A stretch of DNA of 64,000 bases from a virus: the IMG/VR virus record IMGVR_UViG_3300017527_000160, positions 1-64,000 of that record; one strand, given 5' to 3'. The translations under genes were made by a program, and so were the position numbers. The notes below the pieces were generated by a model. The model worked only from the letters and a program-made list of their open reading frames with translations, was not told where the DNA came from and ran no database searches. Below, piece after piece: positions 16,971 to 64,000 of this stretch (position 1 is its first letter; every line of letters starts with the position of its first letter).

Positions 16971-18284
16971 ATGTGCGCTTATTTTAATCATGCTTACAAG
17001 AAAAGCTTCGTATCTACGAAAGGAGATCAAGCTGAAGTAGTTGCAACATCTTCTGGTCTTACTGGTGGTGTCTTAACTACTGTTGATGTTCATGTTAGCG
17101 AAATGAAGAATACTGCAGCTCCTTACGCTTTAGGTGTAGGTACTGTTGGTTTATTCAACGCTAAGACGAACTTGTCAGTGACTTCTGCGGAAATCGCTGT
17201 TTCATGTTGCCCGTTCTACCTTGCTGCGGCTTCTTTAAAACTTAAAGATAAACAAGGACCGTTTCATGGCGGATACCAAGAATCAAACAAATCTAAGGTA
17301 ATCAACCCTAAGTATGTTCGTAAGACTTACTTCGTTGATCCTAATGCTGCTGGAGCTGCTCACGTACAAGTTGGTGGGACAGATGACAACGTTGCTGGAA
17401 ACGCTGATTGTGAGAAGGAATTCTTATGCGGTGAGTCTTACTACTTAAGAGTAGAAGTTAAAGGAACGGCTGCTTTAAGATTTGCTAACCATAACTTATA
17501 CCAAACGCTTCAAGCAGATGGTGGATGTTGTGATGATCCGAGTGCGCCTGTACCTGTAACGTCTGACGTTATATACAGACAATGGGTTACTCAAATTGCT
17601 GAGAGTCCTTATTTAAAAGATTTCATCTTACCTATCTTGGTTGTTGATGGTGATTCTTTTGCATATGATGAGGCTTCTGCTGCAGCTGCTGGATTAGCGG
17701 TAGGAAAGATTTTAGCTAACGCACCTGTTGCTGCAGTTAATTCTGGAATGATCCTAATGGGAGCTTACGTAGACACTAAGTTTGGTGACTGTACATTCCA
17801 ATGTTCAGATTACTACGGTATAGAGCCTGTTCAAATTTTTGCTTCTGAAGTAGACTTAAACGGAGACCCATGTACCTTTGAAGGTTTATGTATAGTTGAA
17901 GATTGCCCTGGAATACAAGCTAATGGAACTGGAGAGCAAAAGGTAAGAGATGTGATTTTATCAGAATCTTACTTAACTAACTTCATGTCTAGTGACTTGA
18001 GAATCCGTGAGATTACTCAAGGGACTGCAGTATATGATGTGATTGATAGAACAGCAATGTATGCTTCTTTCTTCATCTTACACTCTGTGCCTCGTTTCAA
18101 CAACCCATCTGGGACGTTTGATAACGATCAGTACTTGCTTGAGATTATCGGTGATACCGCTATGACAGCTTATTTAGCTGCTGAGTTCACTGCTTTAGAA
18201 GCAGCTGGATGTATCTCTTGTGAATTACCTGAAGATTTATCTCAAGTAACACCTTGTGTTATACCTGCTTTACCAACAGTGTAA
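16971..18284 (+). CDS. Abundant-looking Cys-rich virion protein
   Basis: A 437-residue protein rich in Ala, Gly, Asp and Cys, with Cys pairs (SCCPF, GGCCDDP, CISCELP) and long beta-rich stretches. No catalytic motif or membrane span was seen. It is isolated as a single-gene unit between its own promoter and a very strong terminator, which usually marks a protein needed in many copies. Candidates are an auxiliary capsid protein, a head fibre or a major tail component. The C-terminal part (DVIDRTAMYASFFILHSVPRFNNPSGTFDNDQYLLEIIGDTAMTAY) is mostly helical. Function inferred from context only. Confidence 0.72.
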   Translation: MCAYFNHAYKKSFVSTKGDQAEVVATSSGLTGGVLTTVDVHVSEMKNTAAPYALGVGTVGLFNAKTNLSVTSAEIAVSCCPFYLAAASLKLKDKQGPFHGGYQESNKSKVINPKYVRKTYFVDPNAAGAAHVQVGGTDDNVAGNADCEKEFLCGESYYLRVEVKGTAALRFANHNLYQTLQADGGCCDDPSAPVPVTSDVIYRQWVTQIAESPYLKDFILPILVVDGDSFAYDEASAAAAGLAVGKILANAPVAAVNSGMILMGAYVDTKFGDCTFQCSDYYGIEPVQIFASEVDLNGDPCTFEGLCIVEDCPGIQANGTGEQKVRDVILSESYLTNFMSSDLRIREITQGTAVYDVIDRTAMYASFFILHSVPRFNNPSGTFDNDQYLLEIIGDTAMTAYLAAEFTALEAAGCISCELPEDLSQVTPCVIPALPTV

Positions 18285-44374: not shown

Positions 44375-47300
44375 ATGGCTGAAGAAAATAGCAGTACTCC
44401 TGTATCAGATCTGGATAATGTAGATTCAAGTAGTTTTTTACCTAAAGGTTTGCCGCCACTGGAAATGGATCCCGAGTTATCTTCTTACTTAGTAGAACAA
44501 GGGGTAATAGAAGCACCTACTGAACCTAGTGTTAAACCTGGTAGTGGTCAATCAATGCGTGATAGCTTGTTTGATTTTCAAACAGCTGACTTAGGTATTG
44601 CTACAGATCCATTCAAAATGGGTAAAGAGGTTCATGCTGATTTTCGTAACCCTCATAATCAGAATCAATTCTATGAAAGGTATGCTTCTCATAGTGAGTT
44701 TGAGAACTTAGGTTTCAATCCGTTCAGAGATAACGAAGCGCTGTATAATGAGAACTCTAATATGTTCGAGGAACTTGGTAGATCATTCGGTCAGTGGACT
44801 GGATTGGTAGGTCTTGGTTTCAAAGATGCTGCTGGCTTTGGGGATTTAACTGATAGAGATAATGCCGCAGAGATGGAACGTGCTATGGCTGTAGGTTCAT
44901 CTTCTAAAGGTGGTTTTACTGGTTTCACTAATAACTTATTTTTAAACTCAGGATACACTGTTGGTATTATGGGTGAGCTTGCTTTGGAAGAAGTAGGAAT
45001 GCTTGGTGTAGAAGCTGCTCTCGGTATAGGTACTGTAGCTACAGGTGGTGCTGCTGCTCCAGCATTAGCGGCAAACACTGGACTGATGGCTAGTAGAGCT
45101 GCCAGAGCTTTCGGTAAGATAAAGACCGCACTTGGTGCTAGTTACAGTTTGAGTAAACAGCTTGGTAATCTAAAAGACATTAACAAGGCTAGATCCATGT
45201 GGAGTAAAGGTCTTGGTAAAGCAGGAAAGATAATTAACCCTTTTGAAAATACTGTAGACCTTTATCGTAATAAAAGTAAACTGGATCATCTTAACAAATG
45301 GCAAAAGACATACAAAGGTTTTGCTGAGATGTATAAGGATGTTAGAAACTTCCGTTTGGCGTGGGGTGAAGGTGCTCTTGAAGGAGGTATGATTCAAAAT
45401 CAAATGGAGCGTGAACTCCTGGCTGATTTTAGAGCAGAGAATGGACGTGGTCCTAACGAAGAAGAAGGTCAGGAGATTATAGATACAGCAAGACGTGCGG
45501 GTGTTACAACATCTGTTATCAATATGCCAGTCATCATGCTGTCCAATAAACTTGTGTTTGATGGATTACTTGGTCGTGGTAGATTTAAAAATCTTTATGC
45601 TGATGTTATTGAGACAGGTCATGCAGGAAAAATAATATTTAAGCCGGGTGTTAAAGGAGCGAAAGCTTATAACAAAATGGCTACAGGTCTACAAGGTAGA
45701 TGGGACTATATAAAGAGCCCTCGAATGTGGGCTGCAGGTGCTGCGAAGTATGGTAAGGCAAACATTGCTGAAGGTCTTCAAGAGGTTTTTCAGGAAACGA
45801 TAACTGGTGCTTCTGAGGATTACTATGGTGCCATGTATAGAGGTGATGCTAATCGTGGCGGATATATGTCTTCTATAGTAGGTAATCTTGTTAAACAAGT
45901 AGGCCCGCAAGGTCTTGAGACTTTCATGTCAGGGTTCTTGATGGGAGGTATGGTTGGTCCTGTCTCTACTGGAGTGGGTAACATAACTCAAGCTATCGGT
46001 GGTAACTCAGCAGGTTTTGCTGACAGTCGTGCGGGTAAAATTGGTACTGCTATAGGTAACCAATTTACTAAGATGAGTAAGGGTCAAGAAGCTTATCAGA
46101 AAAAAGTAGATGAGCAGACGGATCAAGCTACTAAAAGAAATACAAAGCTTGAGAAAGATATAGAAACACTGAATGAGTTCTATGAAGATCCTACAAAATA
46201 CTTTTCACCTGAACTAGAAAACCTCGTATCGCAAAAGGCATACAAAGAAGCCATGGATGAGGCTGAAAAGAGAGGTGACAAAAGAATGTTCCATGATATG
46301 GCTGACAGTGCAGAGACCAAGCATGTCATGACAGCCTTGAAGTATGGTAGACTAGATGGTCATATCACTAGAATGGAAGAGATGAAACAGTTCAGTGCAG
46401 AAGAATTTAAAACTCTGAACACAGAACTATCTCAAGAAGACTTTAATTTTAAAATAGATGCTTCAATAGATCGTGCTAAGAAGATTCAATCTACTTGGGA
46501 CTATGCATCAAAGAAATTTCCAAATCCTTTTACTCCGTATAAATATAGACCTGGTACAGATAAGTTCAAGGAAGAAGCTATGAAACAAGTTGTTTGGAAT
46601 AATGCTATCGAAGAGATGGTGTTCCAACAAGAAAGTTTTAATAGAGCCCTAGAAAGACAACAGTCTATTTATCAAAACATACATGAAACTGCAGGTTTAA
46701 AGAAGATGTCTACTAGCGATATCAATGTATTGTTTGATGAGCAAAGTGTTTTAAGTGAGATAGGGCTTTTAAAAATGGAGCTGGAAGGTAACGAAAATAC
46801 TGTAGGATTAAAACAATCAGAAGCTTTGACACCTGATATGAAGCAGATGATTGCTAAGAAAGATGCTAAACTTAAAGCACTCGAAGCATATGATAAAGCT
46901 TTAAAAGAATTTAAAAGTTCTAAAACTGAAGAGGTTGATGAACCTACAGTTAATGCTTTACATAAAGCATATAAAGAGTACATGTCTGTTATGGCAGAGC
47001 AAAGTGGTGAACACCTTAATGTAGATAAGCTTGATGCTTCTTTCGAGGCTTTGGCTGATTCACATTTGTTAACGGCTAGAGCAGGTGATTTGAACAGAGC
47101 TGTTAATATCCTATCAGACCCTAAGAACTTTCTCTCAATGGTTGATAGAAAGAATGCTCGAATAAAAGTTCTTTATGATAATAGAGAGGTTGAAATAAGA
47201 AAATCATTAGAGGAGTTCAGAAAATTAGCTGAGAAAAATGAAATGCTTAACAGGCTATACGACGAAGGTATGTTCTTCGATCCTAAAGATCTTGCTCTAC

Positions 47301-49504
47301 TAGAGAGTGAAGGGAAGATGCCTGTAAACTTCTACTATGCTGATACAACAGATGGTCATAAGCAAGGTGAGGTTCTTAGAACATCTGCTGATTATGCTAA
47401 AGCTATTGGTATTGTAACCAAAGCTATGAAAGCTCAAGGTATTGATGTTGAGGATATCATCATAATGGAGCAGGATGCTAACGCATATACCTCACAGTCT
47501 CGTAGAAAATCAGCGGGTGATGCGAGAACGTATGTAGATCTAGCTCAAGAATTTGGTTTCGATCCAGAAAAGGATTCATCAGAAGTACCTCTAGTAGATG
47601 TACTGGAAGCAATTATTGCAAATGAACATGGGTACAATACTGAACATGAGATAGCATTAGCTCAACAGTTACTTAAGAAAGCGGATTCAAAAGAGACTGT
47701 AACATTCTCTAGGAAGGAGAAGACTCCAGGTGCATACACTTCTGCTGGTGCTGTAGTTGATCCACGATACAGTTCAGATGAATATCATCAAGGAAGAACC
47801 GGTCATCCTATCGAACATGTTATTCTCCATACTGAGATTAAACGTAGAGTCTTCGAGGCTACAAAAGGTGATGCTGATTTTAAGAAGAACATGACACGAC
47901 TTTGGACTGAAGCTCGTACAGCATACGCTGAGTTATCACCAGAAGCACAAGCTGCTATGGACGGTGTTACACTTGACCTATTCCAAAACCTAGATTCATT
48001 CATGGCAGCAGCTATGAGTAATCCTACGTTCCAAGAGTTCTTAGCTACAGTTCATACGAAAGTTGAGACTACAAAAAGCGTTTGGCAAAAATTCGTTGAC
48101 GCTATAATGGCTCACTTGAAAGGAGCTACATTAGGACACAACGGTACAGTATTGAATGCTGCTTTAGATTTAATAACAGCTAAGATCGAGGGTATTGGTG
48201 TTGCTCCAACTAAGACAGCAACAGAGGCAGAGACAACCACTGCTCCAACTAAAACTACAGCAGAGACTAAAGGTATCGTAGCTAATACAATGCCTCCTAG
48301 TCAGATGAAGAAGGATCATCCGGATCTATGGCAAACACTTGTTGATTTATACAAGGAACAGAATATCGATCTTATAAGTCAACCTGGTTCAATAGGTGAC
48401 GAGGCTTTACTTCCTGGTTTTGAATCTATGTCTGATGAAGAGATTGGTAAGTCTCCACAGTTTGCTGCATACATTAAAGGACCGTGGCCAAAAGCATCTG
48501 CTGCTATTTATTCATATAATAAATCATTGGTTAAGCCTACAGTTGAAGTTCCGTTAGGAAGTACTGAGGATGTGAGTAATGAGGAGATAGATGAGTTTAA
48601 GAAATCTAAATTTGTATCCCGTGCTCGAATAGTGAAGATGGCTGAGAAGCAGGAGAAAGGTACGCCTCACACTCTTCGTGAGAAGATGTTACTTAAAAAT
48701 GATATCGTTCGTGCTGGGGTTGAACACTACCTGGACACTAAAGCTAAAAAACCACCAACAATTGTTACCGGTGAAATGAAAGAGCAGTTACGTGAGTTAG
48801 GGTTCTCTGAGAATCAAATCAAAACGTTACATGCTAGACCTGAAGAAGCTTGGAGATTAATCAATGAGGGTATCACTAACGATGAACTTAACGCAACAGC
48901 TCAATCAGCTGCAGCGACACCGTCTACTTTGAATAAATCAGGCGAATTGTTTCATGCAGAAATGGGAGCTATCCTTGAAGGCATATACGATTATCAAACT
49001 CTTGAGCAGGCTGAACAAGAATTGGTTCACATCACAGAGACTCGTAGCGATGAGATGACTAATGCTGGTTTAACAGAAGAAGATTTTGAGGGTTGGATTG
49101 GAAAAGCCTTGCAAAGAATAGCATTTAATTTTACCTTTGAGGATATCCAAGTAGGAGAAGTTCTTATAATGGGTGGCGCATATAAAGTCCAATATAGAGT
49201 GGAACAAAAAAGCGGTAGTGAACTTTATGTAGAACCTGTTGCCGGTGGTAAAGGTACCTGGATAAAAAAGAACGAGATCCATGATAAAATTGAATACAGA
49301 TATAACATAGCTATGAATGATCCGAGAGTAAAGTTTGATGAATCAGAACCTGTTACAGAAGAGGAGAAAGTATTCGCTGAAGAAACTATGGAAGCTACTG
49401 TAGAAATCAATAGTGCGGAAGCTATTAAAGAGGATTTAGAACAAGCAGGCACCATGACTGCAGCTGAAAGAATGGCAAAACTCAAGAACAATAAAAAGTG
49501 TTAA
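44375..49504 (+). CDS. Giant ejection-type protein with membrane-like helices and a degraded zincin region
   Basis: A 1709-residue protein. Hydrophobic helices near 211-240 (Gly/Ala-rich) and 512-535 could insert into membranes during DNA ejection; coiled coil dominates 565-930. Residues about 1140-1265 look like a zinc-metalloprotease fold in which the active-site helix reads H1152-T-E-I-K instead of HExxH. The later stretch LDLFQNLDSFMAAAMSNPTFQEFL resembles the third-ligand helix of such proteases (normally NxEEF.AE...NP.F), also without the usual Glu. This points to an inactive copy. It ends 4 bases before the polymerase-like gene. Confidence 0.76.
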   Translation: MAEENSSTPVSDLDNVDSSSFLPKGLPPLEMDPELSSYLVEQGVIEAPTEPSVKPGSGQSMRDSLFDFQTADLGIATDPFKMGKEVHADFRNPHNQNQFYERYASHSEFENLGFNPFRDNEALYNENSNMFEELGRSFGQWTGLVGLGFKDAAGFGDLTDRDNAAEMERAMAVGSSSKGGFTGFTNNLFLNSGYTVGIMGELALEEVGMLGVEAALGIGTVATGGAAAPALAANTGLMASRAARAFGKIKTALGASYSLSKQLGNLKDINKARSMWSKGLGKAGKIINPFENTVDLYRNKSKLDHLNKWQKTYKGFAEMYKDVRNFRLAWGEGALEGGMIQNQMERELLADFRAENGRGPNEEEGQEIIDTARRAGVTTSVINMPVIMLSNKLVFDGLLGRGRFKNLYADVIETGHAGKIIFKPGVKGAKAYNKMATGLQGRWDYIKSPRMWAAGAAKYGKANIAEGLQEVFQETITGASEDYYGAMYRGDANRGGYMSSIVGNLVKQVGPQGLETFMSGFLMGGMVGPVSTGVGNITQAIGGNSAGFADSRAGKIGTAIGNQFTKMSKGQEAYQKKVDEQTDQATKRNTKLEKDIETLNEFYEDPTKYFSPELENLVSQKAYKEAMDEAEKRGDKRMFHDMADSAETKHVMTALKYGRLDGHITRMEEMKQFSAEEFKTLNTELSQEDFNFKIDASIDRAKKIQSTWDYASKKFPNPFTPYKYRPGTDKFKEEAMKQVVWNNAIEEMVFQQESFNRALERQQSIYQNIHETAGLKKMSTSDINVLFDEQSVLSEIGLLKMELEGNENTVGLKQSEALTPDMKQMIAKKDAKLKALEAYDKALKEFKSSKTEEVDEPTVNALHKAYKEYMSVMAEQSGEHLNVDKLDASFEALADSHLLTARAGDLNRAVNILSDPKNFLSMVDRKNARIKVLYDNREVEIRKSLEEFRKLAEKNEMLNRLYDEGMFFDPKDLALLESEGKMPVNFYYADTTDGHKQGEVLRTSADYAKAIGIVTKAMKAQGIDVEDIIIMEQDANAYTSQSRRKSAGDARTYVDLAQEFGFDPEKDSSEVPLVDVLEAIIANEHGYNTEHEIALAQQLLKKADSKETVTFSRKEKTPGAYTSAGAVVDPRYSSDEYHQGRTGHPIEHVILHTEIKRRVFEATKGDADFKKNMTRLWTEARTAYAELSPEAQAAMDGVTLDLFQNLDSFMAAAMSNPTFQEFLATVHTKVETTKSVWQKFVDAIMAHLKGATLGHNGTVLNAALDLITAKIEGIGVAPTKTATEAETTTAPTKTTAETKGIVANTMPPSQMKKDHPDLWQTLVDLYKEQNIDLISQPGSIGDEALLPGFESMSDEEIGKSPQFAAYIKGPWPKASAAIYSYNKSLVKPTVEVPLGSTEDVSNEEIDEFKKSKFVSRARIVKMAEKQEKGTPHTLREKMLLKNDIVRAGVEHYLDTKAKKPPTIVTGEMKEQLRELGFSENQIKTLHARPEEAWRLINEGITNDELNATAQSAAATPSTLNKSGELFHAEMGAILEGIYDYQTLEQAEQELVHITETRSDEMTNAGLTEEDFEGWIGKALQRIAFNFTFEDIQVGEVLIMGGAYKVQYRVEQKSGSELYVEPVAGGKGTWIKKNEIHDKIEYRYNIAMNDPRVKFDESEPVTEEEKVFAEETMEATVEINSAEAIKEDLEQAGTMTAAERMAKLKNNKKC

Positions 49505-49508
49505 TACT

Positions 49509-52500
49509 ATGAAGTGTACAATTGTAGGAGCTAACCAACGCGATGTGCGTGTGGTTGTCGCAGGTGATATTTTCGATTTGATGAAAGCAGGTAAGCCTGT
49601 AGATGTGAAAGCATTGTCATTGAATATGTACAACGCAATGTACGACGCAGAACAAAAGAACAACACGGAAGCCTTAGCATATGCAAGGCTTGTTCCTTTT
49701 ATGGTGCAACAGTTAATGGGTGTTGATGCAACTATCTTAAAGCATGTTGTGGAATCAAAGGTGGATCTTGGTGAACTTGCCAATACACAGATTGCTGCTC
49801 AAGATGCTGAGACAGGTTTAAAGTATGTTGAAGAATGGTTAGGTGTTCGTGAGAATGGATTGAAAGAATCATTAGCTGCTGCTCAACCAAAGAAAGCAAA
49901 AAAAAAACCTGGTAGACAAGCAAAGCTTTTTGCTGATGAGGTTGTTAAGCTTGGTGATACTGTACAAATACTTAGTGGTAAAGGTAAAGGTGAGGTAGTT
50001 ACTGTTACTGAAGACCATGGTGATAAGGTAAGATTATCCAATGGTGTACTTAGAAAAAAGACTAGAGTTAAATTGAAGGCACAAACTTCTGTGCCTGTTG
50101 CTGCTCCTGTTAAATTAACAATTCGACAAAAAGTTATAAGAAGTTTAGAGCTTGACTTGAAGCAATCAGATGAGAGCAAGTTCCCAATGTCTGCTGCTGC
50201 AAGACGTAAAGTACAAGCTCAGTTGGATCAGTTGAAAGCTGAAGAAGCTGGTAAAGCGCCTGTCAAAAAGAAAGACGGTTGGTCAAGAGAAGATATCATG
50301 GAGGATGCTCATAATCAACATCAAGCTGGTGTTGATGATTGGTATGCTAATAAGAAAAAACAAATAGCTGAGGAAGAGGCTGTTCTATCAACTGGAAGCG
50401 AAAACTTAGAAACTGGCGCACCGGAAGGTGATCCTGGTGTAGGACCGACACCTATTTCTGTTGAAGAAGTTATGGCACTGCCTGTAGAGGAGTTCACTAG
50501 ATGGTTCATCACTCACGGATTAATAAGTGGGAACGAGACTGGTTTAAATCAACGCCCTTATATAGGTGGAAGATCGCCTGCTGATTTACGAGCTGTTGTT
50601 AATAGAATTAAATTGGGTAAGACTCATAAGAAGGATGGGACTATATTGAAAAGCGTAGCTGACTTCTATGCGGACATGGCTGAGATCCAAAAGAATAATG
50701 ATGAGTTCCCGATGATTAAAGGTACTGGTGGTAAGAATGATGGACGAACAGGTTCACCACCACTTAGTGCAATTATACAAAGTGGATTGGATATGGCCAA
50801 AGGTGGTCCAGTTGATGAAGTAGATGAGGATTCAAAAGAAGAGGTAACACCTAAACCACGTAATAAGAATTATTTACAAGGAGCACTTAAGAGTGTTATC
50901 GATGGTGTTGTGAAAGCTTTCAACGCTCATGCCCCATCATGGATGACTACATCTGGAAATGAGACTGGTTATAATGTGGGTGAAGTTAGTGCAAGGATAC
51001 CTACCGCAGCAAGTAAAGCAGCTTATGCTGCACAACGTACGATCTTAAGATTGATGGAAGATGGAAACATCCAAGACAGTAAAGATCTCAAAGTTAACGG
51101 TAGGACAGGTGTATTCTTGACTGCTAAGTTTGCTGACGGTCGTATCAGAATGACTCTTACAGATAAGAACGGTGATGCTATTTTATTTGACGGTAACGAT
51201 CAGCCTGCACTGGATGGTAATCCTAGAGAATATGGTATGCGTGCCGTAGACAAATTCTTCGATAAGGAAGGTAATGTGAAGACAACAGGGAAACGTTTCA
51301 ATGAGATGGTTGATGCTTTGATTAACGCTAAGCCTCACCTTACTAGAACAAGAGCTGTGAATATTCTTAAAGCAGAGGTTGAACATATCCAAGCTGTTAG
51401 AGAATACATCAATAAGGATCAAGAGAATAACTCTCTTGAATTTTCAATAAGCGGTGGTTCTCTTGGTTATATCCAAGTAGGATTTTCACCTAAAGAACTT
51501 ACATCAGTTAGTAAACTGAGCGATAAGGTTACAATGAAGCTGTCCACTAAAGCCGACAACATCGGTGAGGAAGGGCATGTGTATGCCACTTCGGATGAGA
51601 TGGAAGGTGACTGGATTCCTATCGAACGACCAGGTCTTAGAGATACACCTTTTGCTGATGTTGTTGAATCATTATTGTTTGATGAGAACTTAACAGATAA
51701 GGATGGTAAGCTCTTGAATGCTGTAGATAGAGCAAAGCACATAGATAAATATGTCGGTACGAACAAGGAGAGTGAGATACTATTTGATTATGATATCGGT
51801 ACTAAGAAAGTTAAACGACTTGTTATAGGTAATACTGTGATCATCGATGTTGAGAAAGGTATCAGAGATTTAGAGGTGGGTAAGATTGCTTATAAGCAGT
51901 TGTTAGCAAAGAATAACAAGGGTACTAGTTTCCCAACACTTAAGATGCATGTGAATGCAGATGCTTTAGCTAGAAGAGATTTCATGTCTGTAAGTATAGC
52001 GGACGGTGTTGTAACTACAGAAGGGAAAAATACCAGAGTGCATATGGCTGAGCAAGGGTTCATGATCCAGACCCCTGATGTTGCATCTGACGGTATGATC
52101 AGAAAGGTTAATGCATACTTCACTTTTAAGTTAAGTGAGAAAGGTGACCAAGCGTTAAATGGTAAAGCTGTTGCTGAAGAAGAAGCAAAGATTGCTGAAC
52201 AGAATACTGAAGAGATTGAAGAGAACGAGGATGATGCTTGGCAGAAAGCAATGGATGCTAAGATGAAAGCGCTTCAAGATAAAAACAAACCATTGGATGA
52301 AGATGAAGATGATCGTTTATTCAGAAGCTTGGATGTAAAGAATCAGAATCGAGCAGCTACTGCTGAACAGATAAAAGAAGCTAGAGACTGGTACGAGAAA
52401 CACCCTCTTAGTAAACACATTCCGTTCAAGACAATGTTTGAACAAATGAATAAGGATGGTGTTGCTCAATGGACTGTTGAAGGAATCACTTTATTTAAAG

Positions 52501-55500
52501 GTGCTGACTACAGTGACTTATATCATGAGGCATGGCACGGGTTCACTCAGACTATGTTGACTAAACAACAAAAGACTGATTTGTATAAAGAACTTGGCAG
52601 GAAAGTAGGGTCGTTTAAAGACTACAACGGACGAATGGTTTCTTTTGCTGCAGCTAATGAGAAACAACTTGAAGAGCATTTAGCTGAAGAGTTTAGAAGC
52701 TTTATGCTTAAAGGTAAGAAGGCTACCACAGCTGGACCTAAACAATTGTCTTTCTTTAAGAAGATCTTAGCTATACTGAAAGCTCTTTTCAATAACTCGC
52801 ACATCGATCAGGTTATCATGGACGCTAAGTTCGATAGCAAGGTTAGTGAATTGTTTGAGAAGATGAGAGTTGGTAACCTTGCGGGGTATACATTTTCTCA
52901 AGCTAATGCTAACTTTGGTAAACTGAATCAAGGGATAACAGCTATACCTGGTAATGAAATAAAAGAAGGTGTGGAAAGCTTGAACTACCAAACATCAGCT
53001 GAACTTAATAACATGATGGATGCATACTTAGCAGAGTATGTAACAGTCATGAATCAAGGGTTGGATTCTGCGGGACAGGCTCGTGTAAAGAAATTGAATA
53101 CTGAGTTACAAGATACTGAGAATTTAAATCAAGCTGAACAAAAAGCTAAGCGAGATGAACTTGATGCATTGCTTAACAACGATGCTGCTAGTTATAAGTA
53201 TTCATCATTGATTGTAAGTGACCCAGACGTACTTACTACAGGTTACTTCTATGCACAAGGAAAGTTTCAAAGACTTAAAGCTTCTTTATCTGCGAAAGTG
53301 AAGAAAGAAACAGACCCTGTTCAGAAAGCTAGTGATCTTAAAGATCTTAAGATGATTGAATTTGCTTTAGATCAGTTTGGTAACATAGATGATATCTATA
53401 GTAATCAGAGTGCTGATGGTACTGTAGCATATGGTTTGATAGGATACCACATGCAAAGGTCTAAGTTATTTCAAGACAGCAGACCTACACAAGAGGAAAT
53501 TGCTGATGAACAGAAAGGACCTGTTGCAAAGAGAGCATTCGATAGAGCGGGTAATGAATCTTCTTTAAAGGAGATGGCTTCCGCTGAAATCTTATACCTA
53601 TTGAAAACACTTCCTCAAGTTGAGAAGAATGATGAAGGTGAATGGGTACCAGTTACAAATAGATTTGATGTTAATGAATTGGCACCGTTTCAAACTACAT
53701 GGAACAGAATGGTCAGAGCTACTGAGAACATCCAGGACTTCGATCAGATGTATGATAAGTTGCAAGAAGAGGCAGTTAAGTTTCCCGTCCTAGAGGAATT
53801 ATTGAAACGTATGGGAGATCCTCATTCGAGTAAAGTTAACACCGAGCATACCTTATGGACACAGTTGTTTAAAACATTCTCGAAGAGTAGAGTTCCTCTT
53901 ATTCAGATGACTGTAGAACAACAGGGTAGAGGAGTTAATGTTAAATGGGAAGCTAGAGTAGGTGAGGCATTCAATGCTGACTACGCTATCGGAAGACAAT
54001 GGCAATCGATGTTCACTGGTGCAGAACCAAGTGAGTTTATCAAGAATACTATAGAAGGGAACTACATGGACCTTGCTGCCATCATTAAGAAGTTTCCTCA
54101 TCATAGTGCAGCATCTGCTAATCCTTTTGAATTTTTCCATGCGATAGGGATGCCATTATCGGATAATCCTGAAATAAGAAATGAACTGAAAGCTAATCTT
54201 GGTACGTATGGTCCTGGGCATTTCCATGATGAGATCATGAAATTGAAAGGTGCAGGAACGCGTGTAGAAAGATTGGATCAAATAACAGAAGAAGTTAATG
54301 GTCGTTACAAAGATCTAATGAAACTAGAGGCTCGTTATTCAGATGTATTCTCTAGCTTCATGGTGACTAATGCTGAAGGTAATACTCAATTTGAGCATAC
54401 CTTGAACAACAGTATGACTATGATGGTGAATGCTGTTAATAATTCCATTGACTATAATGACATGGTTTCTAAACCGCACTTGGCTCATCTTGATATAAAT
54501 AAGAATCCGTTTGCAAAGTCATCTCTTTGGTTAAAAGCGATGTTCAATCTTGATGGAAGCCCTGACATAAATAGTATAGGTAAAGACGGTAAGTCTAACC
54601 ATAACCCTAATTACGGTGAGAGGAGAGTGACTAAGTCTGGAGATTTTGTGACTTTGCGTTTGACTAATCTTAGTGGTGTGCTTGCTAAGACTATGGGTGA
54701 TGAAACTGGAACAGGTGTATCTTCTGCAGGAGCAGATGAGTACAGTAAGTTAATCATGGATCTTCAGTTATCATATAGCGGTATGCCTGAGCTTATGCGT
54801 CATGCTGATAAAGGAACTTCTTTTACAATTACCATAGATGGTCCATTAGATATAGATTCTCAACCTACCGATAACTATGTTCCTATCGGGGACTTTGCTG
54901 CAGGTGGAAGATTCAGAGAGAAGACAGTTGATAGATTATCTCCACACATTGTTGCTGAGATGAGTCGTATGCGTATACTAAGAGGCATGACTAACATGGA
55001 CGGTACTCCTAAAATGGATGTACCTTTCGATGTTGACTATATCATGAATGGTCAACAGTTTGTTGCTTTTGAAGATGTCTTGAGTGATGGTACTAAAGCT
55101 GCTTTGAAAAAGATTGCTTTCAGTGAAGAGAACATAGAGGACGCTGTTGAAGCAATGCGTGAAACCATCAATGCTGATTTGACGAAATACTTTGACAAGC
55201 AGTATGAAGAAGTAAACAAGAAATTCGATGATGCATTCTTCCTTGCTGATAACATCCAGGAGGATATGTCACGTAAAGGAATTACAGGTAACAAAAGAGA
55301 AGCGGCTATCCGTTCTTATGTTCACAACAGTTGGATCCATAACATTGAATCCATTGCTGTAATCTACGGAGATCTTGCTCAGTATAACCATGCTAAAGAA
55401 GGTTTCCACAAAAGGAATGCCGGTGGTGGTTCTACTGGTGACATCTATCGTTATGATAAAACGATGGCTAAGAACATCAATGATAATTATTACAAGTCTA

Positions 55501-58500
55501 GCTACGCTGCTAAGCATGCTAATAGATTAGGTATCACTGAACGACGTTACTTTGGTGGAACTATGTCTACAGCTATTATCGAAGATCAGGAGATTCGTTC
55601 TGTATATATGGACGAGTATGAAGAGGCGTTCGGTGAAGATGCTTACAAGCTTGGTAACTATGCTAAACAGAATGAAGGTGATGCCCAAGGTTTGATTACT
55701 TTTGATTCATACCGTGAATTGAAAGTTGCAGAGGGTACCTGGAGTAATGAACAGGATGCTTTGTTTAAGAAGATTGTTAACGGAGAGAAAGTTTCTAGTA
55801 GAGATGTTGCACAGTTCTTCCCGGTAATCAAAGCTCAATATTGGGGACCACTTGCAAACGATACAGCACTCCCTGTTATGGCTTTCCATAAGTATTCTTT
55901 ATTCCCGATGACTCCTAGTGTGATCAAAGGAAAGAAGATGGAAAAGCTTCACGATAAGATGGTGAAGGAAGGGATTGGATATGTAACATTTGAATCAGGT
56001 TCTAAGGTCGGTACTATTAGTAAGACTGCTAAGGTAAAGAAGAATGAGAAGACAGGTGAAATAGAGAAGGTTTCAAGAGGATACGATAAAGTATATACTG
56101 AAGGTGAAGCACTTGACCCTAACATCATGGATCCTAAGATGGAAGATGCTGATGGGAATTATGTTGAACACTTTACTAAGAATGATATTCACTTACACTA
56201 TTTGAAGAATCAGTTAGAGATTCACGATGAAAGGAAAGGTAACGTTATCTTCTCTACTCAGTTAAGAAAACTTATTGAGGATGGCTTGATGGCTAATGGT
56301 GTACCAAGTGATTTCATGATGAAGGAAAGTTTAGGTGGATCTAAAGTTGTAGCTGAACGTAAAGCAGAATGGGCTAAGATAGAAGCTAAGTGGGATACTA
56401 TGTCTCCAGAAGCTCAACAGAAAACATCTAAGAAGTATGGTCTACTGAAGGACTACGAAAAGAATATTAACAGGCTGACTCAATACGCTAAGGAGAAGCT
56501 CCTGGAAGAAATCAATTGGCAAGAAATTGTTGATCCGAAGACTGGTGAGAAAAGCCTGAAGGGTGATATGAAGAATCTGTTAGAGCTAGTTCGTTCAGAA
56601 TTAGTTAGACAAGATCTTGGACAACACTCTATTGATTTTATCCAGACGAATACTGACGGGACTATCAAACATGATTTATCATTATCACTGAATGTAGAAC
56701 AGATTGAGAAGTTACTTAACGCCATGATGGTGAAGAAACTTATCAAGCAGAAAGTTAATGGTGAAGGTTTGATCCAGGTAGCTGCTACATTGATGGAAGA
56801 CATGGCTGCTGAACAGGGTCGTGACTTTAGGAATCCTACAGAAGAGGACTTAGCGAAGTGGGGGTCGAAAGATCTTCCGCACTATAGACCTAACCAAGGA
56901 CCGAACGGAGAGACGACGGCAGCGAAAGTTAAAGTTGCACTTGCCGGTGACTTTAGGCATCTACTTAAGATGACTTCTGTTCAAGAGCTTGCTAAAGAAC
57001 AACGTATAATAGATATTGCAAAAGCTAAGGGAGGAAGTTGGACAGCGGCACATGTTGCTCTAAATGAACTTATCAAAGATGAGGAGTGGCTGAATGAAGG
57101 ACGTAACCGTGAGATGGTTTCTATGATCGGTGTGAGAATACCAGTACAGGGACTTAACTCTATGGAGTTTATGGAAGTGTACGAATTCCTACCCGAAGAA
57201 GCGGGCTCGGTGATTGTGCCTCCTACCGAAATTGTAACCAAGTCTGGAGCCGATTTCGATGTTGATAAGATGACTGTGATGATGCCTAACATTCTTAGTT
57301 TGAATGGGAGTGTTGAATTAGCTACATCCGATTTGGCTACTAAACCTAAAGAGACTTTAAAGGAAGAACGAGATGCTCTAGTACAGAAGATTAGTGATAT
57401 CAGAGAAGAGCATAAAGAAGCCCGTAAAGATAAAGAAACTAGATTCACTGCTGAAGAGCGTGAGATCTTAGATGATACCAAGTCAAGGATTCGTGATGAA
57501 CAGAGAAAAATCAAGAGTCTGAAGAAACAATGGCTCGATACATCACGTCAATATAAATCACCAAGAGTAATCAAACGAATGAAAGCTCTTGAAGAAAGTA
57601 TTGATGCTGCTCAGTTTAAGAAAATGTCTTTAGAAGAAACAGAAGACATGTACTATAACACTTTACCTGGTGATAGATTGAAACATATACTTTCTGAACC
57701 ACAAGCAGAACTTGCTATAATACGTAGACAACTTGCTTCACTTACAGATAAGCCTATCCAAAATGACATCATGAATAGTATACGTGCTGTTCTTGAGTTA
57801 CCGGATAACTTTAAACCATTGGTTATGCCTAACAGTACTGAGTTACTTACAGGTCAAGATAACGATGGTTTAGCTCAAGAGATGGAACCACACGTTGTTG
57901 ATACTAATAAGTTTGATAATGTTCACTCTACGAAAAGATATCAAGGACCGAAAGGTGATAGGATCTCAGCAACCAGAGTTTTAGAAGTTGGTTACAACCT
58001 TGAGAAGCATATGAAGAATGCAATCGGTAAACAAACACTTGCTTTGGGAGCGGTTGATAACACGTATAACACTCTCTTCAATAGGATTGGTGCTTATATG
58101 AATCCTCGGGTTCATTCTGAAGCTCAGTATGATGCGGCAAGAAGGCAAGAAAAGAAAGATAAAAAGAAGCTAACTCAAAAGCAGAAAGATGTCTTGAAGG
58201 AATATAGTGAGCAAAGAATCATGCTTAACCATAATACAATGGATATAGAAGGTAGTGATGCTATCTCATTATCACACATCAATGATGCTGCTGGTACACC
58301 TATATCAGATGTTGTCAATCAGTTGATTAACGGTTGGGTGGATATTGCTGCTGATGCTTTTGTATTTAACTTACAAGGTAATAAGGAGATCTCACCAGTA
58401 CTGTTATTTATGGTGCAAGCGGGTGTTCCAATTGATGAAGCTGTATACTTTGTTTCTAATCCACTGGTTAGAGAATATGTTAAGGAGCAGAAGCTTGCTA

Positions 58501-61364
58501 ACAGTACATTCGGTATGGCTCTTGGTACAACACCTACAATCGACGTTGTTGATGCTGAAGGTAATAGTAGAGTAGTTCCTGCGCCACAGATGGCTCAGTT
58601 CAAATCTAAAGGTAGAGTTTTATCACGTCACTTCCAAGGTGTTACTGATGGTACTCAGAGAACCATAAATGAACTTGGTAGAGAAAGGCAAGCGAATGCT
58701 AATGATTATAAAGGTAGAACTAAATTTGATAAAGAAGAGTTAAAGAAAGCTGCTAAAAGTAAAATGGGTGCTCGTGAAATCACTGAATTCGATAAGGATG
58801 TGTTTGTTCACTTCCTTGAGATAGAGAACATGAGTAAAGCTGTTAAGGATATGAAGATGAGAACTAATGTGGATACATCGAAAGATGCTACATTGTTCGA
58901 GGCTCAGGATAGAATTACTATGATTGAACAGATCAAGAGAGACGGTAAGTTCCCTGCAGAGATGGTTGATAAGATCCGAGTGGATTCACCTATCGCTAGT
59001 TTCTTTATACAAGACTTCCAAATCGATTTACTTGGCGATGCGTTTCCACTAAGGAACCATGAGGTAATTAACAACTTCATCCAAGGTGTTGAGTTCGACG
59101 ATTGGAAAAACACTTATGGTCTAAAAGATAAAGCAATCATCAACTGGAAATCAGATATGATAAACTATATCTTCCAGAATGAACTTAAGTATTTTGATGT
59201 CGATAAGATAACTCACTATAAAGGTAGAAGATTAACTTCAAGAACAGCTGCTCAAGCAACTAGTAAGGTTAACTTAGGTACTGAAACAGCTCCTAAAAGT
59301 GGTAATGTAATAATTGATGCAGTTAAAGGTAGAGAACCTCAACCTGGAGCAATAACAGCATTCAGAACTAAAGGTAAAACAGAGCAAAATATGATCGATG
59401 CTCTTAAGGATGATGCTGTTGGAAATCCTTTTGGTCCTTATGGGGCTATAAAAGAAGAGACTGCTGTATCAGTTACTAGATTCTTAGATTGGTTAGAAGG
59501 TAAAGCAGATACAAATGTAATGCAAGATTATAGAAATGCAATTCTTGCTAAACAAAATGAATTAGCTAATAAAGACATTTATTACTATAAAGATTTAAGC
59601 AGACCTTCTCATGCTACAGCTTTAGATTACTTTTTAAATAAATCAACACAACAAACCAGTGATGCCGGAATGGCTGTTGAAGATGTATTCTTAACTAGAC
59701 ATGGTGCGTATGCCAAAGACGGGAAGATGTATATTGATAAAGCTCAGTTAAAAACTGACTTTGCTAATAAAACTTATACGCAAAAGCCTATCACTCAAGA
59801 AGAATATGCTAAAGAAACACACGAAGCTGTATCTCAAGGTGAGACACCTACACACATGCGTCTTACTGCACCAGTATCAAACTTGGCGTTTAGTACAGAG
59901 AATGAGTATATCCAGTTTGTGATGGAAAGAGAATCTTTGAGAGAGGCGAGACCTTTATCTAAGTTACTAAGTTCGGAAAAAGATTGGAGTGAATCAAACT
60001 CAAAGTTTAAAGCAGTTGTTGATCGCTTCATGTATGAGAACAAGATCAAGGTGGGTCAAAGTAAAGACGCACATGCTGAATGGGTTGTGGCTATGGCTTA
60101 TGAAGTTTATCTTAGAGATGTCGCATTGGCTAGAACTAATAACCACTGGCACATGTTCCGTGGTGAAGACACATATGCTCATGAGTTTGCTAGAATCAAA
60201 CGTAACTATCCTGTTTTATCAACGCATTTTTCTTTGATGAATGCTCTTGATTTTAAAGGGAGTATGGGATGGAAAAACCTTGCACTGAATCAAAGTGAAC
60301 TTGATGGTGATCAGACTAATGTGTTACATGAGAACTTACAAGACTTAGCTGACAGCAGTAAACTACAAGAGCTTCTACCAGAGGCTTCTCAAATGGAGAT
60401 CGATGAGATCAAAGAACATTTTGAGAACTTCCATACAGTAGCATTCTTGCAATCAGGTATGAGTCAGGGTAGTCGATTCTCAATGACTCAGTTTGTATCG
60501 CAAGATCAGATGATAAGGTTGATGGAGAAACCTCTACAAAATCTTAACACGTTACTCGCAAGTAACAACCCGCTTAAGCAAGTGTTCTTAGAGGAGTATC
60601 ATCATAGATGGGTGCAGCAGAATTCCGCTGCTAGTAGAAACACAAGAATTCGTGGTAAGAATATGAATAACAATGTTACATTATTAGATAGTAACACGAT
60701 TGGTCAAGGTGTTCAGACTACTGAACCAGCTCAACAAAGAATAACAACTATCGGGGCTCAACCGGCTTTGATCAGTGAGCGAGGTTACTCTGGGTTTAAT
60801 ATCTCACAAACAAATGCTGAGAAGTATTTAGAGAAGTATCCTAATTTTACTTTCGTATATGATTTTGCTATCGATAATCAAATGGGTGCTGCAGGGGCTA
60901 ACAGTAACAGAAACTTTCACGGTAAAGGTCCTAACGCAATAGGTCTCCCTACATTGTTTAAGTATTCACCTGGTAATGATAAAACCGGAACACGACCTGA
61001 TCTCATAAGAGATGTTGACGGGAAGGTGAGTGACAAAGTGAAGGAAGTTATTGATCATGCTATCGATCAGATGGTAGATAATATGAACAGCGGACAGACG
61101 TTGCAATTCGATAGAGAAGGATACGGTCAGTATATGATTGAATCAAAAGACGGTGCTCCTCGTTTAGCACCTCAAACTTTCTTATATTTGTCGAAGCAGT
61201 TGCTTGAAAGAGTTCAGTTCGTTAACCCTGGTTATTTGAAAACTCAATCAGGTAAGGTGGCGACACAAGCAGGTCAAGCGGTCACTGATGCTTCTATCTG
61301 GCAAGAGGTTCAGAATGAAATGAGTGATGATGCAGTGAGAGATTTTATAAAACAATGTCTATAA
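49509..61364 (+). CDS. Giant virion RNA polymerase-like polyprotein with a zincin domain
   Basis: A 3951-residue protein, one of the longest phage genes. Residues about 145-190 carry a KOW-like motif (GDTVQILSGKGKGEVVTVTE). H1006-E-A-W-H1010 with a later EEHLAEEF suits an active zincin. Two double-psi barrel candidates follow: the first near 2107-2167 has K2128 (FHKYSLFP) and K2166 (SGSKVG), like the Lys pair of the beta-type barrel; the second has IRIP-type VRIPVQGLNSMEF and D2582-F-D2584-V-D2586, matching the NADFDGD motif of the beta-prime catalytic centre. The C-terminus has GNPFGPYG (about 3305) and a Gly-rich strand near 3783-3823. crAss-like phages package such polymerases. Catalysis is inferred. 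Confidence 0.83.
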   Translation: MKCTIVGANQRDVRVVVAGDIFDLMKAGKPVDVKALSLNMYNAMYDAEQKNNTEALAYARLVPFMVQQLMGVDATILKHVVESKVDLGELANTQIAAQDAETGLKYVEEWLGVRENGLKESLAAAQPKKAKKKPGRQAKLFADEVVKLGDTVQILSGKGKGEVVTVTEDHGDKVRLSNGVLRKKTRVKLKAQTSVPVAAPVKLTIRQKVIRSLELDLKQSDESKFPMSAAARRKVQAQLDQLKAEEAGKAPVKKKDGWSREDIMEDAHNQHQAGVDDWYANKKKQIAEEEAVLSTGSENLETGAPEGDPGVGPTPISVEEVMALPVEEFTRWFITHGLISGNETGLNQRPYIGGRSPADLRAVVNRIKLGKTHKKDGTILKSVADFYADMAEIQKNNDEFPMIKGTGGKNDGRTGSPPLSAIIQSGLDMAKGGPVDEVDEDSKEEVTPKPRNKNYLQGALKSVIDGVVKAFNAHAPSWMTTSGNETGYNVGEVSARIPTAASKAAYAAQRTILRLMEDGNIQDSKDLKVNGRTGVFLTAKFADGRIRMTLTDKNGDAILFDGNDQPALDGNPREYGMRAVDKFFDKEGNVKTTGKRFNEMVDALINAKPHLTRTRAVNILKAEVEHIQAVREYINKDQENNSLEFSISGGSLGYIQVGFSPKELTSVSKLSDKVTMKLSTKADNIGEEGHVYATSDEMEGDWIPIERPGLRDTPFADVVESLLFDENLTDKDGKLLNAVDRAKHIDKYVGTNKESEILFDYDIGTKKVKRLVIGNTVIIDVEKGIRDLEVGKIAYKQLLAKNNKGTSFPTLKMHVNADALARRDFMSVSIADGVVTTEGKNTRVHMAEQGFMIQTPDVASDGMIRKVNAYFTFKLSEKGDQALNGKAVAEEEAKIAEQNTEEIEENEDDAWQKAMDAKMKALQDKNKPLDEDEDDRLFRSLDVKNQNRAATAEQIKEARDWYEKHPLSKHIPFKTMFEQMNKDGVAQWTVEGITLFKGADYSDLYHEAWHGFTQTMLTKQQKTDLYKELGRKVGSFKDYNGRMVSFAAANEKQLEEHLAEEFRSFMLKGKKATTAGPKQLSFFKKILAILKALFNNSHIDQVIMDAKFDSKVSELFEKMRVGNLAGYTFSQANANFGKLNQGITAIPGNEIKEGVESLNYQTSAELNNMMDAYLAEYVTVMNQGLDSAGQARVKKLNTELQDTENLNQAEQKAKRDELDALLNNDAASYKYSSLIVSDPDVLTTGYFYAQGKFQRLKASLSAKVKKETDPVQKASDLKDLKMIEFALDQFGNIDDIYSNQSADGTVAYGLIGYHMQRSKLFQDSRPTQEEIADEQKGPVAKRAFDRAGNESSLKEMASAEILYLLKTLPQVEKNDEGEWVPVTNRFDVNELAPFQTTWNRMVRATENIQDFDQMYDKLQEEAVKFPVLEELLKRMGDPHSSKVNTEHTLWTQLFKTFSKSRVPLIQMTVEQQGRGVNVKWEARVGEAFNADYAIGRQWQSMFTGAEPSEFIKNTIEGNYMDLAAIIKKFPHHSAASANPFEFFHAIGMPLSDNPEIRNELKANLGTYGPGHFHDEIMKLKGAGTRVERLDQITEEVNGRYKDLMKLEARYSDVFSSFMVTNAEGNTQFEHTLNNSMTMMVNAVNNSIDYNDMVSKPHLAHLDINKNPFAKSSLWLKAMFNLDGSPDINSIGKDGKSNHNPNYGERRVTKSGDFVTLRLTNLSGVLAKTMGDETGTGVSSAGADEYSKLIMDLQLSYSGMPELMRHADKGTSFTITIDGPLDIDSQPTDNYVPIGDFAAGGRFREKTVDRLSPHIVAEMSRMRILRGMTNMDGTPKMDVPFDVDYIMNGQQFVAFEDVLSDGTKAALKKIAFSEENIEDAVEAMRETINADLTKYFDKQYEEVNKKFDDAFFLADNIQEDMSRKGITGNKREAAIRSYVHNSWIHNIESIAVIYGDLAQYNHAKEGFHKRNAGGGSTGDIYRYDKTMAKNINDNYYKSSYAAKHANRLGITERRYFGGTMSTAIIEDQEIRSVYMDEYEEAFGEDAYKLGNYAKQNEGDAQGLITFDSYRELKVAEGTWSNEQDALFKKIVNGEKVSSRDVAQFFPVIKAQYWGPLANDTALPVMAFHKYSLFPMTPSVIKGKKMEKLHDKMVKEGIGYVTFESGSKVGTISKTAKVKKNEKTGEIEKVSRGYDKVYTEGEALDPNIMDPKMEDADGNYVEHFTKNDIHLHYLKNQLEIHDERKGNVIFSTQLRKLIEDGLMANGVPSDFMMKESLGGSKVVAERKAEWAKIEAKWDTMSPEAQQKTSKKYGLLKDYEKNINRLTQYAKEKLLEEINWQEIVDPKTGEKSLKGDMKNLLELVRSELVRQDLGQHSIDFIQTNTDGTIKHDLSLSLNVEQIEKLLNAMMVKKLIKQKVNGEGLIQVAATLMEDMAAEQGRDFRNPTEEDLAKWGSKDLPHYRPNQGPNGETTAAKVKVALAGDFRHLLKMTSVQELAKEQRIIDIAKAKGGSWTAAHVALNELIKDEEWLNEGRNREMVSMIGVRIPVQGLNSMEFMEVYEFLPEEAGSVIVPPTEIVTKSGADFDVDKMTVMMPNILSLNGSVELATSDLATKPKETLKEERDALVQKISDIREEHKEARKDKETRFTAEEREILDDTKSRIRDEQRKIKSLKKQWLDTSRQYKSPRVIKRMKALEESIDAAQFKKMSLEETEDMYYNTLPGDRLKHILSEPQAELAIIRRQLASLTDKPIQNDIMNSIRAVLELPDNFKPLVMPNSTELLTGQDNDGLAQEMEPHVVDTNKFDNVHSTKRYQGPKGDRISATRVLEVGYNLEKHMKNAIGKQTLALGAVDNTYNTLFNRIGAYMNPRVHSEAQYDAARRQEKKDKKKLTQKQKDVLKEYSEQRIMLNHNTMDIEGSDAISLSHINDAAGTPISDVVNQLINGWVDIAADAFVFNLQGNKEISPVLLFMVQAGVPIDEAVYFVSNPLVREYVKEQKLANSTFGMALGTTPTIDVVDAEGNSRVVPAPQMAQFKSKGRVLSRHFQGVTDGTQRTINELGRERQANANDYKGRTKFDKEELKKAAKSKMGAREITEFDKDVFVHFLEIENMSKAVKDMKMRTNVDTSKDATLFEAQDRITMIEQIKRDGKFPAEMVDKIRVDSPIASFFIQDFQIDLLGDAFPLRNHEVINNFIQGVEFDDWKNTYGLKDKAIINWKSDMINYIFQNELKYFDVDKITHYKGRRLTSRTAAQATSKVNLGTETAPKSGNVIIDAVKGREPQPGAITAFRTKGKTEQNMIDALKDDAVGNPFGPYGAIKEETAVSVTRFLDWLEGKADTNVMQDYRNAILAKQNELANKDIYYYKDLSRPSHATALDYFLNKSTQQTSDAGMAVEDVFLTRHGAYAKDGKMYIDKAQLKTDFANKTYTQKPITQEEYAKETHEAVSQGETPTHMRLTAPVSNLAFSTENEYIQFVMERESLREARPLSKLLSSEKDWSESNSKFKAVVDRFMYENKIKVGQSKDAHAEWVVAMAYEVYLRDVALARTNNHWHMFRGEDTYAHEFARIKRNYPVLSTHFSLMNALDFKGSMGWKNLALNQSELDGDQTNVLHENLQDLADSSKLQELLPEASQMEIDEIKEHFENFHTVAFLQSGMSQGSRFSMTQFVSQDQMIRLMEKPLQNLNTLLASNNPLKQVFLEEYHHRWVQQNSAASRNTRIRGKNMNNNVTLLDSNTIGQGVQTTEPAQQRITTIGAQPALISERGYSGFNISQTNAEKYLEKYPNFTFVYDFAIDNQMGAAGANSNRNFHGKGPNAIGLPTLFKYSPGNDKTGTRPDLIRDVDGKVSDKVKEVIDHAIDQMVDNMNSGQTLQFDREGYGQYMIESKDGAPRLAPQTFLYLSKQLLERVQFVNPGYLKTQSGKVATQAGQAVTDASIWQEVQNEMSDDAVRDFIKQCL

Positions 61365-61373
61365 TATAACAGT

Positions 61374-64000
61374 ATGTCTAGTTGTCCAAATAAAAGTTTT
61401 AAAACAGATAGTAACCAAGAGAAGAGCGACTGGGCTCTTTTAGAAGAAGGTGTAGGTTACTTTGAAGCAATGCGTGATTACCTTGAAACAGGTGGTGAAA
61501 TCAGAACACCTGAACAGGTTAAAGATAAGCTTGCCATGAGGAAAGAAGTACCAGGATCTGCAATGAGCCCTGAATCAACAATTCCTTCAGGTGAATTCAC
61601 TCTTGCTGATATAGCTAATGATCAACTTAAACAGACTGAGGACTTCGGTATAAACACTGATCAGTTAAAATCTACTAGAGCAATCGAGCTAGCAAACAAA
61701 ATGTCTGCTGCTTTAGGTATCCAGTATGAGTTGGTTACTGCGCAACAGGCGGCACTGATCACACAGAATGCTAAGAACCCATGGAATGGAGAAGGAGCTT
61801 TCTTTGTTGGTGGTAAGGTTTACTTTATCCAAGAGAAGATGACCAGTGACATGGTGTTGCATGAGTTCGCACACCCGCTGGTTCGAGTAATCTCTAAAGA
61901 AAACCCTGCACTATTTGATAAGCTTTATAACGACATAGCTAATACAACAGAGGGACAGGAAGTAATACAAGCAGTGACCGATCACTATAAAGCGCTTGAA
62001 CCTGGTTCAGCATACTTTAAGGAAGAGGTAATTGTAAAAGTACTGGAGAAGCATGGGGCACAAAAACTATCGAAGGAAAAGGTTCAGGGACCGTTTGCAA
62101 AAGCTATTGCTGAATTCCTATTTGCGATTAAACAACTTCTACGTAAGAGGTTCGGTAAGCATATCAAAATTTCTAAACTTTCTACAGACACTTCTTTAGA
62201 TGAGTTAGCTGACATACTTACTGCTGGAGATAAGATCTCTATTGATACTGAGTTGATTTCTGAGGAGGACATCGTAGCGTATAACAAAGAGGCAGAAGCT
62301 GAGGTGAACAATGATTTGAATACTGTTCGTAATCAGGACATCCAAGCTACGGTGAATGATTTCTACGATAAGATCACGGATCATATGCAGGAGTTGATGC
62401 ATAATGAGAACTATGCTGAGTTAGCGGATGTTCTAGTAGACAGCAACCAGGTTAAGATGTACCAAGCAATGAAGGGTAATCTTAAACCTCATCATAAGGC
62501 AATGATGAGTAAAGCTAACGCAACTCTGGAATCTGCTGAGGAGAGTAGAAAAAGGGTGAATGCCTTGACAAATACTTTGTTCCGTTTAGAGGATGTGATG
62601 AAGAAGATGTATGAGCATACTAAAGATATTGCTACTTATCCAGATACACAGGATAACATGCAGAAGGCTTATTACTACAAGAAGTTTACAGATCACTGGC
62701 AAGAGTTCATGACTGACTTGAAAAATACGTTGGAGAATGAAGCCAACGGTGTTGATTCAAGATCGGAGATAGTAGCCCTAGTGAATGCTATAGAATCAGA
62801 TATTAGTAAGACCGGTAAGATAATCGATAAGATGTATGCCGACGGATCAAGAGATGCTTTATACGAACAACTAGTTCCTATGAATAGAGCCATCTCTGAA
62901 AGATATGAAGAGCGTATAGCTAACTTGAGAGAGAAGGGTGCATCTCCAGAACGTATAGATAAAGTATTTACAGAGTATCATGGTGTCAACCAAGCTGACA
63001 AGAAGATCATGGATACTTTAACTGCCAAGTATAAGGCAGGTACTATAACTACTACTGAACAGAATACACTTGATCAACTCGTAGTAAAAGGAAAGAAAGG
63101 ATTATCTATCAGTAAGGATAAGATAGAACTACTACTGAAAGGTAGAATGGGTGATGCTAACTGGTTTAGTTCATACCTAGAAGGATACTTATATAACTCT
63201 GACCCTATTGTGGGTGGTTTGGCTTTGTTTGTTAAGAATGCTACGAACGATGTGATGATAGTAGCGCAACAAAAATACAATGACTTCGCCAATGATATCA
63301 GAGATGACCTTAAGGCTGCGGGATACAATCCAAACCGTGTAGGTAAACTTGGTAAGGACGTGGGTCGTAAAGATAAAATTGCACGTATCAATGAGGAAGG
63401 TATCCTTGAAGAAGCTGAGGTATGGTCTTTCAAACAAGAGTTTGGTAATGGTTTCCGTTATGACCAAGATGCTCTCAAGAAGACAATGCAGTTAGCTGAG
63501 GAAGCTCATGAGACTAACAATACACCTGAGACTAAAGCGGCTTTTATAAAGGCTGAGAAAGAGTATAAGAAATTTGAGCGTGACTATATGCATCAACAAT
63601 TCACTGATGCATACTATGCTCGTGAGGAGCTGTTTGAAGATGACCCGGTCGGGGAAGCTGCTGGTTTCGCTAGGAGAGAAATACTAGATGATATGCAAGA
63701 GCTTACCTCTCACGCTAAGACTCAGTCTGACCACCTAGAGATTGCCGATGAGCTTGATGCTATATGGCGTAAGTATCGTTTACTGCATAGTAACTATGAC
63801 CACAACGGTAAGCTCAAGACTGGTGATGATTTGGAAATAGCTAAGAGACTTCGTACTTATAGACAAGAGTCACAAGAGCTGCACGAGTATACTGTAAGAA
63901 AGGGTGCGTTCGAGAATGCATACTTTAACTTTCAACAGGAACTTAGAAATCAAAACATAGAAGAGAATACTACCGATCCTGAGTCTGAGTGGAACAAGAA
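61374..64000 (+). CDS. Large protein with intact HExxH zinc-protease motif (3' truncated by window)
   Basis: The frame is open from the ATG at 61374 to the end of the window (875 codons, no stop), starting 9 bases after the polymerase stop. Residues about 100-270 form a zincin-like domain: QYELVTAQQAALI, GGKVYFIQEKMTSDMVLH163-E-F-A-H167, and a helix FKEEVIVKVLEKHG that could supply the third zinc ligand. After this the sequence is strongly charged and helical, with long coiled-coil character to the end. It is the last of six giant genes and is probably also a packaged protein. Protease activity is inferred from the motif. Confidence 0.8.
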   Translation, partial: MSSCPNKSFKTDSNQEKSDWALLEEGVGYFEAMRDYLETGGEIRTPEQVKDKLAMRKEVPGSAMSPESTIPSGEFTLADIANDQLKQTEDFGINTDQLKSTRAIELANKMSAALGIQYELVTAQQAALITQNAKNPWNGEGAFFVGGKVYFIQEKMTSDMVLHEFAHPLVRVISKENPALFDKLYNDIANTTEGQEVIQAVTDHYKALEPGSAYFKEEVIVKVLEKHGAQKLSKEKVQGPFAKAIAEFLFAIKQLLRKRFGKHIKISKLSTDTSLDELADILTAGDKISIDTELISEEDIVAYNKEAEAEVNNDLNTVRNQDIQATVNDFYDKITDHMQELMHNENYAELADVLVDSNQVKMYQAMKGNLKPHHKAMMSKANATLESAEESRKRVNALTNTLFRLEDVMKKMYEHTKDIATYPDTQDNMQKAYYYKKFTDHWQEFMTDLKNTLENEANGVDSRSEIVALVNAIESDISKTGKIIDKMYADGSRDALYEQLVPMNRAISERYEERIANLREKGASPERIDKVFTEYHGVNQADKKIMDTLTAKYKAGTITTTEQNTLDQLVVKGKKGLSISKDKIELLLKGRMGDANWFSSYLEGYLYNSDPIVGGLALFVKNATNDVMIVAQQKYNDFANDIRDDLKAAGYNPNRVGKLGKDVGRKDKIARINEEGILEEAEVWSFKQEFGNGFRYDQDALKKTMQLAEEAHETNNTPETKAAFIKAEKEYKKFERDYMHQQFTDAYYAREELFEDDPVGEAAGFARREILDDMQELTSHAKTQSDHLEIADELDAIWRKYRLLHSNYDHNGKLKTGDDLEIAKRLRTYRQESQELHEYTVRKGAFENAYFNFQQELRNQNIEENTTDPESEWNK

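Follow-up and report, generated by a model that had tools for sequence, protein, structure and literature searches.

A giant single-chain RNA polymerase with the ordinary family motif DFD[V/I]D in an environmental crAss-like phage

The present analysis indicates that the 3951-residue protein encoded at 49509-61364 (+) is almost certainly the DNA-dependent virion RNA polymerase of a crAss-like phage of ~100 kb from an environmental lineage, built as a single chain and carrying the ordinary DFD[V/I]D motif. The window, i.e., the whole stretch of DNA analysed, comprises bases 1-64000 (64,000 nucleotides) of a 99,915-base IMG/VR virus record. Previously, a note made from the sequence of this stretch had described a protein of that length, and the open reading frame, with its ATG start and no internal stop, bears this out. 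Homologues of the protein include phi14:2 gp66 and crAss001 gp50. It adds one sequence to a well-described enzyme family, the crAss-like virion polymerases, whose function has been published (PMC7886860, PMC10136315, PMC10172136).

When compared with all PDB chain sequences, the protein had a sole match, 6VR4, the gp66 virion RNA polymerase of the crAss-like Cellulophaga phage phi14:2. The E-value was 7.5e-21 in a single-sequence search, where residues 2038-2173 and 2528-2619 matched on their own, and 1.1e-45 with a 38-sequence profile. Chance does not account for the match: none of 50 shuffled copies of the protein gave one at E <= 1. This gp66-family homology is significant along both barrels. 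Searches of Pfam and PHROGs with the whole 3951-aa protein returned nothing useful. The DFDxD word by itself is weak evidence, because 47 of 1000 shuffled versions of the protein contain it.

The earlier note had further placed two lysines ~415 residues before DFDVD, and all five residues are found at those positions, with the codons of K2128 and K2166 at 55890 and 56004 and those of D2582, D2584 and D2586 at 57252, 57258 and 57264. Both lysines lie in the beta-like (DPBB-B) barrel segment (55803-56030, +; phmmer stretch 2038-2173 against 6VR4). The beta-prime-like (DPBB-A) catalytic segment, residues 2530-2600 (57096-57308, +; phmmer stretch 2528-2619), reads RIPVQGLNSMEFMEVYEFL...GADFDVDKM, and the catalytic stretch of the polymerase as such reads VRIPVQGLNSMEF...GADFDVDKM. 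Within it, the putative Mg-binding DFDVD triad occupies 57252-57266 (+). By alignment, K2128 and K2166 correspond to K1027 and K1065 of gp66, and the three aspartates to D1361, D1363 and D1365. The two lysines and three aspartates are invariant in the 38-sequence alignment (positions 189, 227, 643, 645 and 647, to which 1939 is added to obtain protein numbering). A third gp66-matching stretch, residues 2930-2991 (58296-58481, +), is weak alone (i-Evalue 1.7) and is probably the bridge-helix region.

The predicted structure points in the same direction. The core, residues 1940-3130, was modelled with AlphaFold at moderate quality (mean pLDDT 68, pTM 0.67), with low confidence for barrel A. Its fold match to 6VR4 and the order of the aligned segments indicate two double-psi barrels in one chain, the beta-like one first. 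Foldseek of this core against the PDB retrieved only 6VR4 (E = 2.6e-23; the next match had E 1.5) and returned no cellular polymerases, and against viral models it gave a long list of crAss-like polymerases. Of the two structures with which the earlier note had proposed to compare the fold, phi14:2 gp66 was thus recovered and QDE-1 was not, as no QDE-1 chain appeared among the PDB matches at E <= 10; the link of such polymerases to QDE-1 is known only through gp66 (PMC10770324). In two-barrel single-chain polymerases, the connector is described as running from DPBB-B to DPBB-A (PMC10770324), and the barrel order here agrees. Since pLDDT falls below 50 in the loop with the Asp triad, the putative clustering of lysines and aspartates in space is deduced from the gp66 alignment. 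Taken with the sequence, alignment and fold matches to 6VR4, the proposal of a single-chain two-barrel crAss-like polymerase, beta-like then beta-prime-like, holds.

By this reading, the beta-like double-psi barrel would supply K2128 and K2166, preceding in the same chain a beta-prime-like barrel whose D2582, D2584 and D2586 would bind Mg2+. Judging from its homology to gp66, the polymerase is likely to be packed in the capsid and, as in its relatives, would be ejected alongside the DNA and carry out early transcription with no need for the host enzyme. For phi14:2, packaging of the polymerase in virions, its injection and rifampicin-resistant early transcription have been reported (PMC10136315, PMC7886860).

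The window polymerase shares with phi14:2 gp66 the barrel order, both lysines, the three aspartates and the motifs RIPxQG and KxGxDFDxDKM, at ~22% identity in the core. However, gp66 has 2180 aa against 3951 here, and lacks the N-terminal ~1150 residues that bear the HExxH module described below. A decayed or structural paralogue, in which the fold is kept and polymerase function lost, could be imagined from this far greater length and from the fact that the support for catalysis is homology. Yet every catalytic residue is invariant, and conservation along the protein peaks at residues 2551-2600, where mean identity to relatives is 74%. Moreover, when the 99.9-kb record was scanned with the DFD-x-D DNA pattern GAYTTYGAYNTNGAY, there was one other match, which lies antisense to the gene holding it; therefore, no second candidate polymerase is seen by this pattern. 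We regard such decay as having a negligible chance of being correct. As for the length, we retrieved 80 environmental relatives, and the giant size is ordinary because the relatives' polymerases mostly span 3.1-4.9 thousand residues. The longest reaches 4904 aa, and the idea of an unusual size was dropped.

The earlier note had treated the glycine between the second and third aspartates as invariant, and had suggested that its replacement by valine could change catalysis or fidelity. The glycine is indeed the rule in cellular beta-prime, but it is never found in the gp66 family. Among 40 non-redundant sequences (the window protein and 39 relatives), this residue was Val in 28, Ile in 12 and Gly in none; all 53 ORFs gave 39 V and 14 I. 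Among named phages, Val occurs in crAss001 gp50 (SDFDVDKL) and crAssphage gp44, and Ile in phi14:2 gp66 (DFDID) and crAss002 gp33. Sequences that share 41-54% core identity with the window include both forms. As judged from the aligned sequences, DFDVD is the normal form of the family motif DFD[V/I]D, because Val or Ile stands there in 40 of 40; therefore, no protein-specific change of catalysis or fidelity is implied. A functionally altered polymerase could be argued from Val standing where cellular beta-prime (NADFDGD) and P23-45 gp96 (DFDGD; PMC10770324) have Gly. We consider it very improbable: Val/Ile is fixed family-wide, so that nothing sets the window polymerase apart, and the structurally solved phi14:2 gp66, with Ile, is reported to be active in vitro (PMC10136315). 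It would be a mistake to take the "missing glycine" for a lead.

The preferred reading, an ordinary crAss-like virion polymerase, also matches the gene neighbourhood, which is conserved. The polymerase gene is flanked by a gp47-like and a gp49-like gene, within the transcription/cargo block that is usual for crAss phages. Upstream, a 1709-aa protein (44375-49504, +) is a homologue of crAss001 gp47, an RNAP-associated cargo protein (family profile E 4.6e-24). Downstream, a 1967-aa protein (61374-64000, +, continuing to record position 67277) is homologous to crAss001 gp49 (E 2e-73) and to phi14:2 gp65 (E 7.8e-44). The three large cargo proteins gp47, gp49 and gp50 are thus shared with Bacteroides phage crAss001, where all have been detected in virions (PMC10172136). 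As here, the phi14:2 polymerase gene lies in a cargo/transcription block and a gp65-like gene comes next. Earlier in the window, PHROG matches identify TerL, portal and major head protein; in tblastn, TerL retrieved mostly crAss-like phages at ~24% identity. The crAss-type TerL, portal and major capsid protein, along with the ~100-kb genome, place the phage in the order Crassvirales. A search of the window with Rfam gave zero matches. The downstream gp49-like protein carries a second HExxH (HEFAH, window 61860-61874). Near the C-terminus of this RNAP-associated protein, outside the window, lies a partial LysM match (record 66159-66230) at E 8.3e-6, which is above the Pfam cut-off.

The N-terminal region of the polymerase carries a fused zincin-like HExxH module (52326-52988, +; residues 940-1160) with HEAWH at 52524-52538 (residues 1006-1010), in which H, E and H are invariant in 27 sequences. 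Residues 940-1160 show homology to the crAss001 gp47 C-terminus (E 1.6e-12) and also to the polymerase chains of cr108_1, cr1_1, cr4_1 and cr118_1. A zincin-RNAP fusion peculiar to the window phage is ruled out by its presence in these four, and the annotation of crAssphage gp45 likewise describes a fusion to a zincin protease. In crAss001, in contrast, HExxH ends a separate gp47 on the strand opposite to gp50, whereas here it lies in the polymerase chain. The arrangement here resembles the giant RNAPs of Suoliviridae (cr1_1, cr4_1 and cr118_1; 4491-4946 aa), where HExxH and RNAP form one chain followed by a gp49-like gene, although their N-terminal region is longer. In Foldseek, the HExxH region had no match below E 0.5, which leaves the zincin fold unconfirmed; a profile search of the region against PDB sequences returned nothing.

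The N4 vRNAP has an unrelated, T7-like fold. An HExxH or metallopeptidase domain is reported both in this giant ejected polymerase of coliphage N4 (PMC12633501) and in that of P23-45, gp96 (PMC10770324), which, unlike the window protein, is fused to a tape measure. That the module is an active metalloprotease working during ejection, and that its recurrence in N4 vRNAP and P23-45 gp96 is independent, is a speculative and rather unlikely reading. Such a protease might trim the giant chain, open a self-inhibited polymerase or cut host proteins. If true, the recurrence of HExxH in N4 vRNAP and P23-45 gp96 would mark something that ejected giant polymerases need in general. The question raised is what role the recurring module plays in them.

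The window protein also contains two inserts. A charged helical insert 3′ of the motif (residues 2601-2745; 57309-57743, +) is mostly missing in relatives (occupancy 0.17-0.53) and is predicted as helices in the AlphaFold model. A KOW-like insert (residues 147-190; 49947-50078, +) has an occupancy of 0.00, being present in the window protein only and in 0 of 39 compared relatives; its matches to Pfam KOW (E 0.014) and to uL24 (E 0.0057) are weak.

Some observations concern the relatives' records. Public entries label crAss-like polymerases as DNA helicase, exonuclease V or nuclear pore complex-like (cr118_1, cr50_1 and cr8_1), and the polymerase ORF of cr4_1 contains 38 in-frame stops under table 11. 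In cr108_1, the polymerase gene breaks in the DxDxD region (locus sequence 17446-17737): one ORF ends there, and the next begins with LYDIDKM 290 bases after the break, which is possibly an intron or another insertion.
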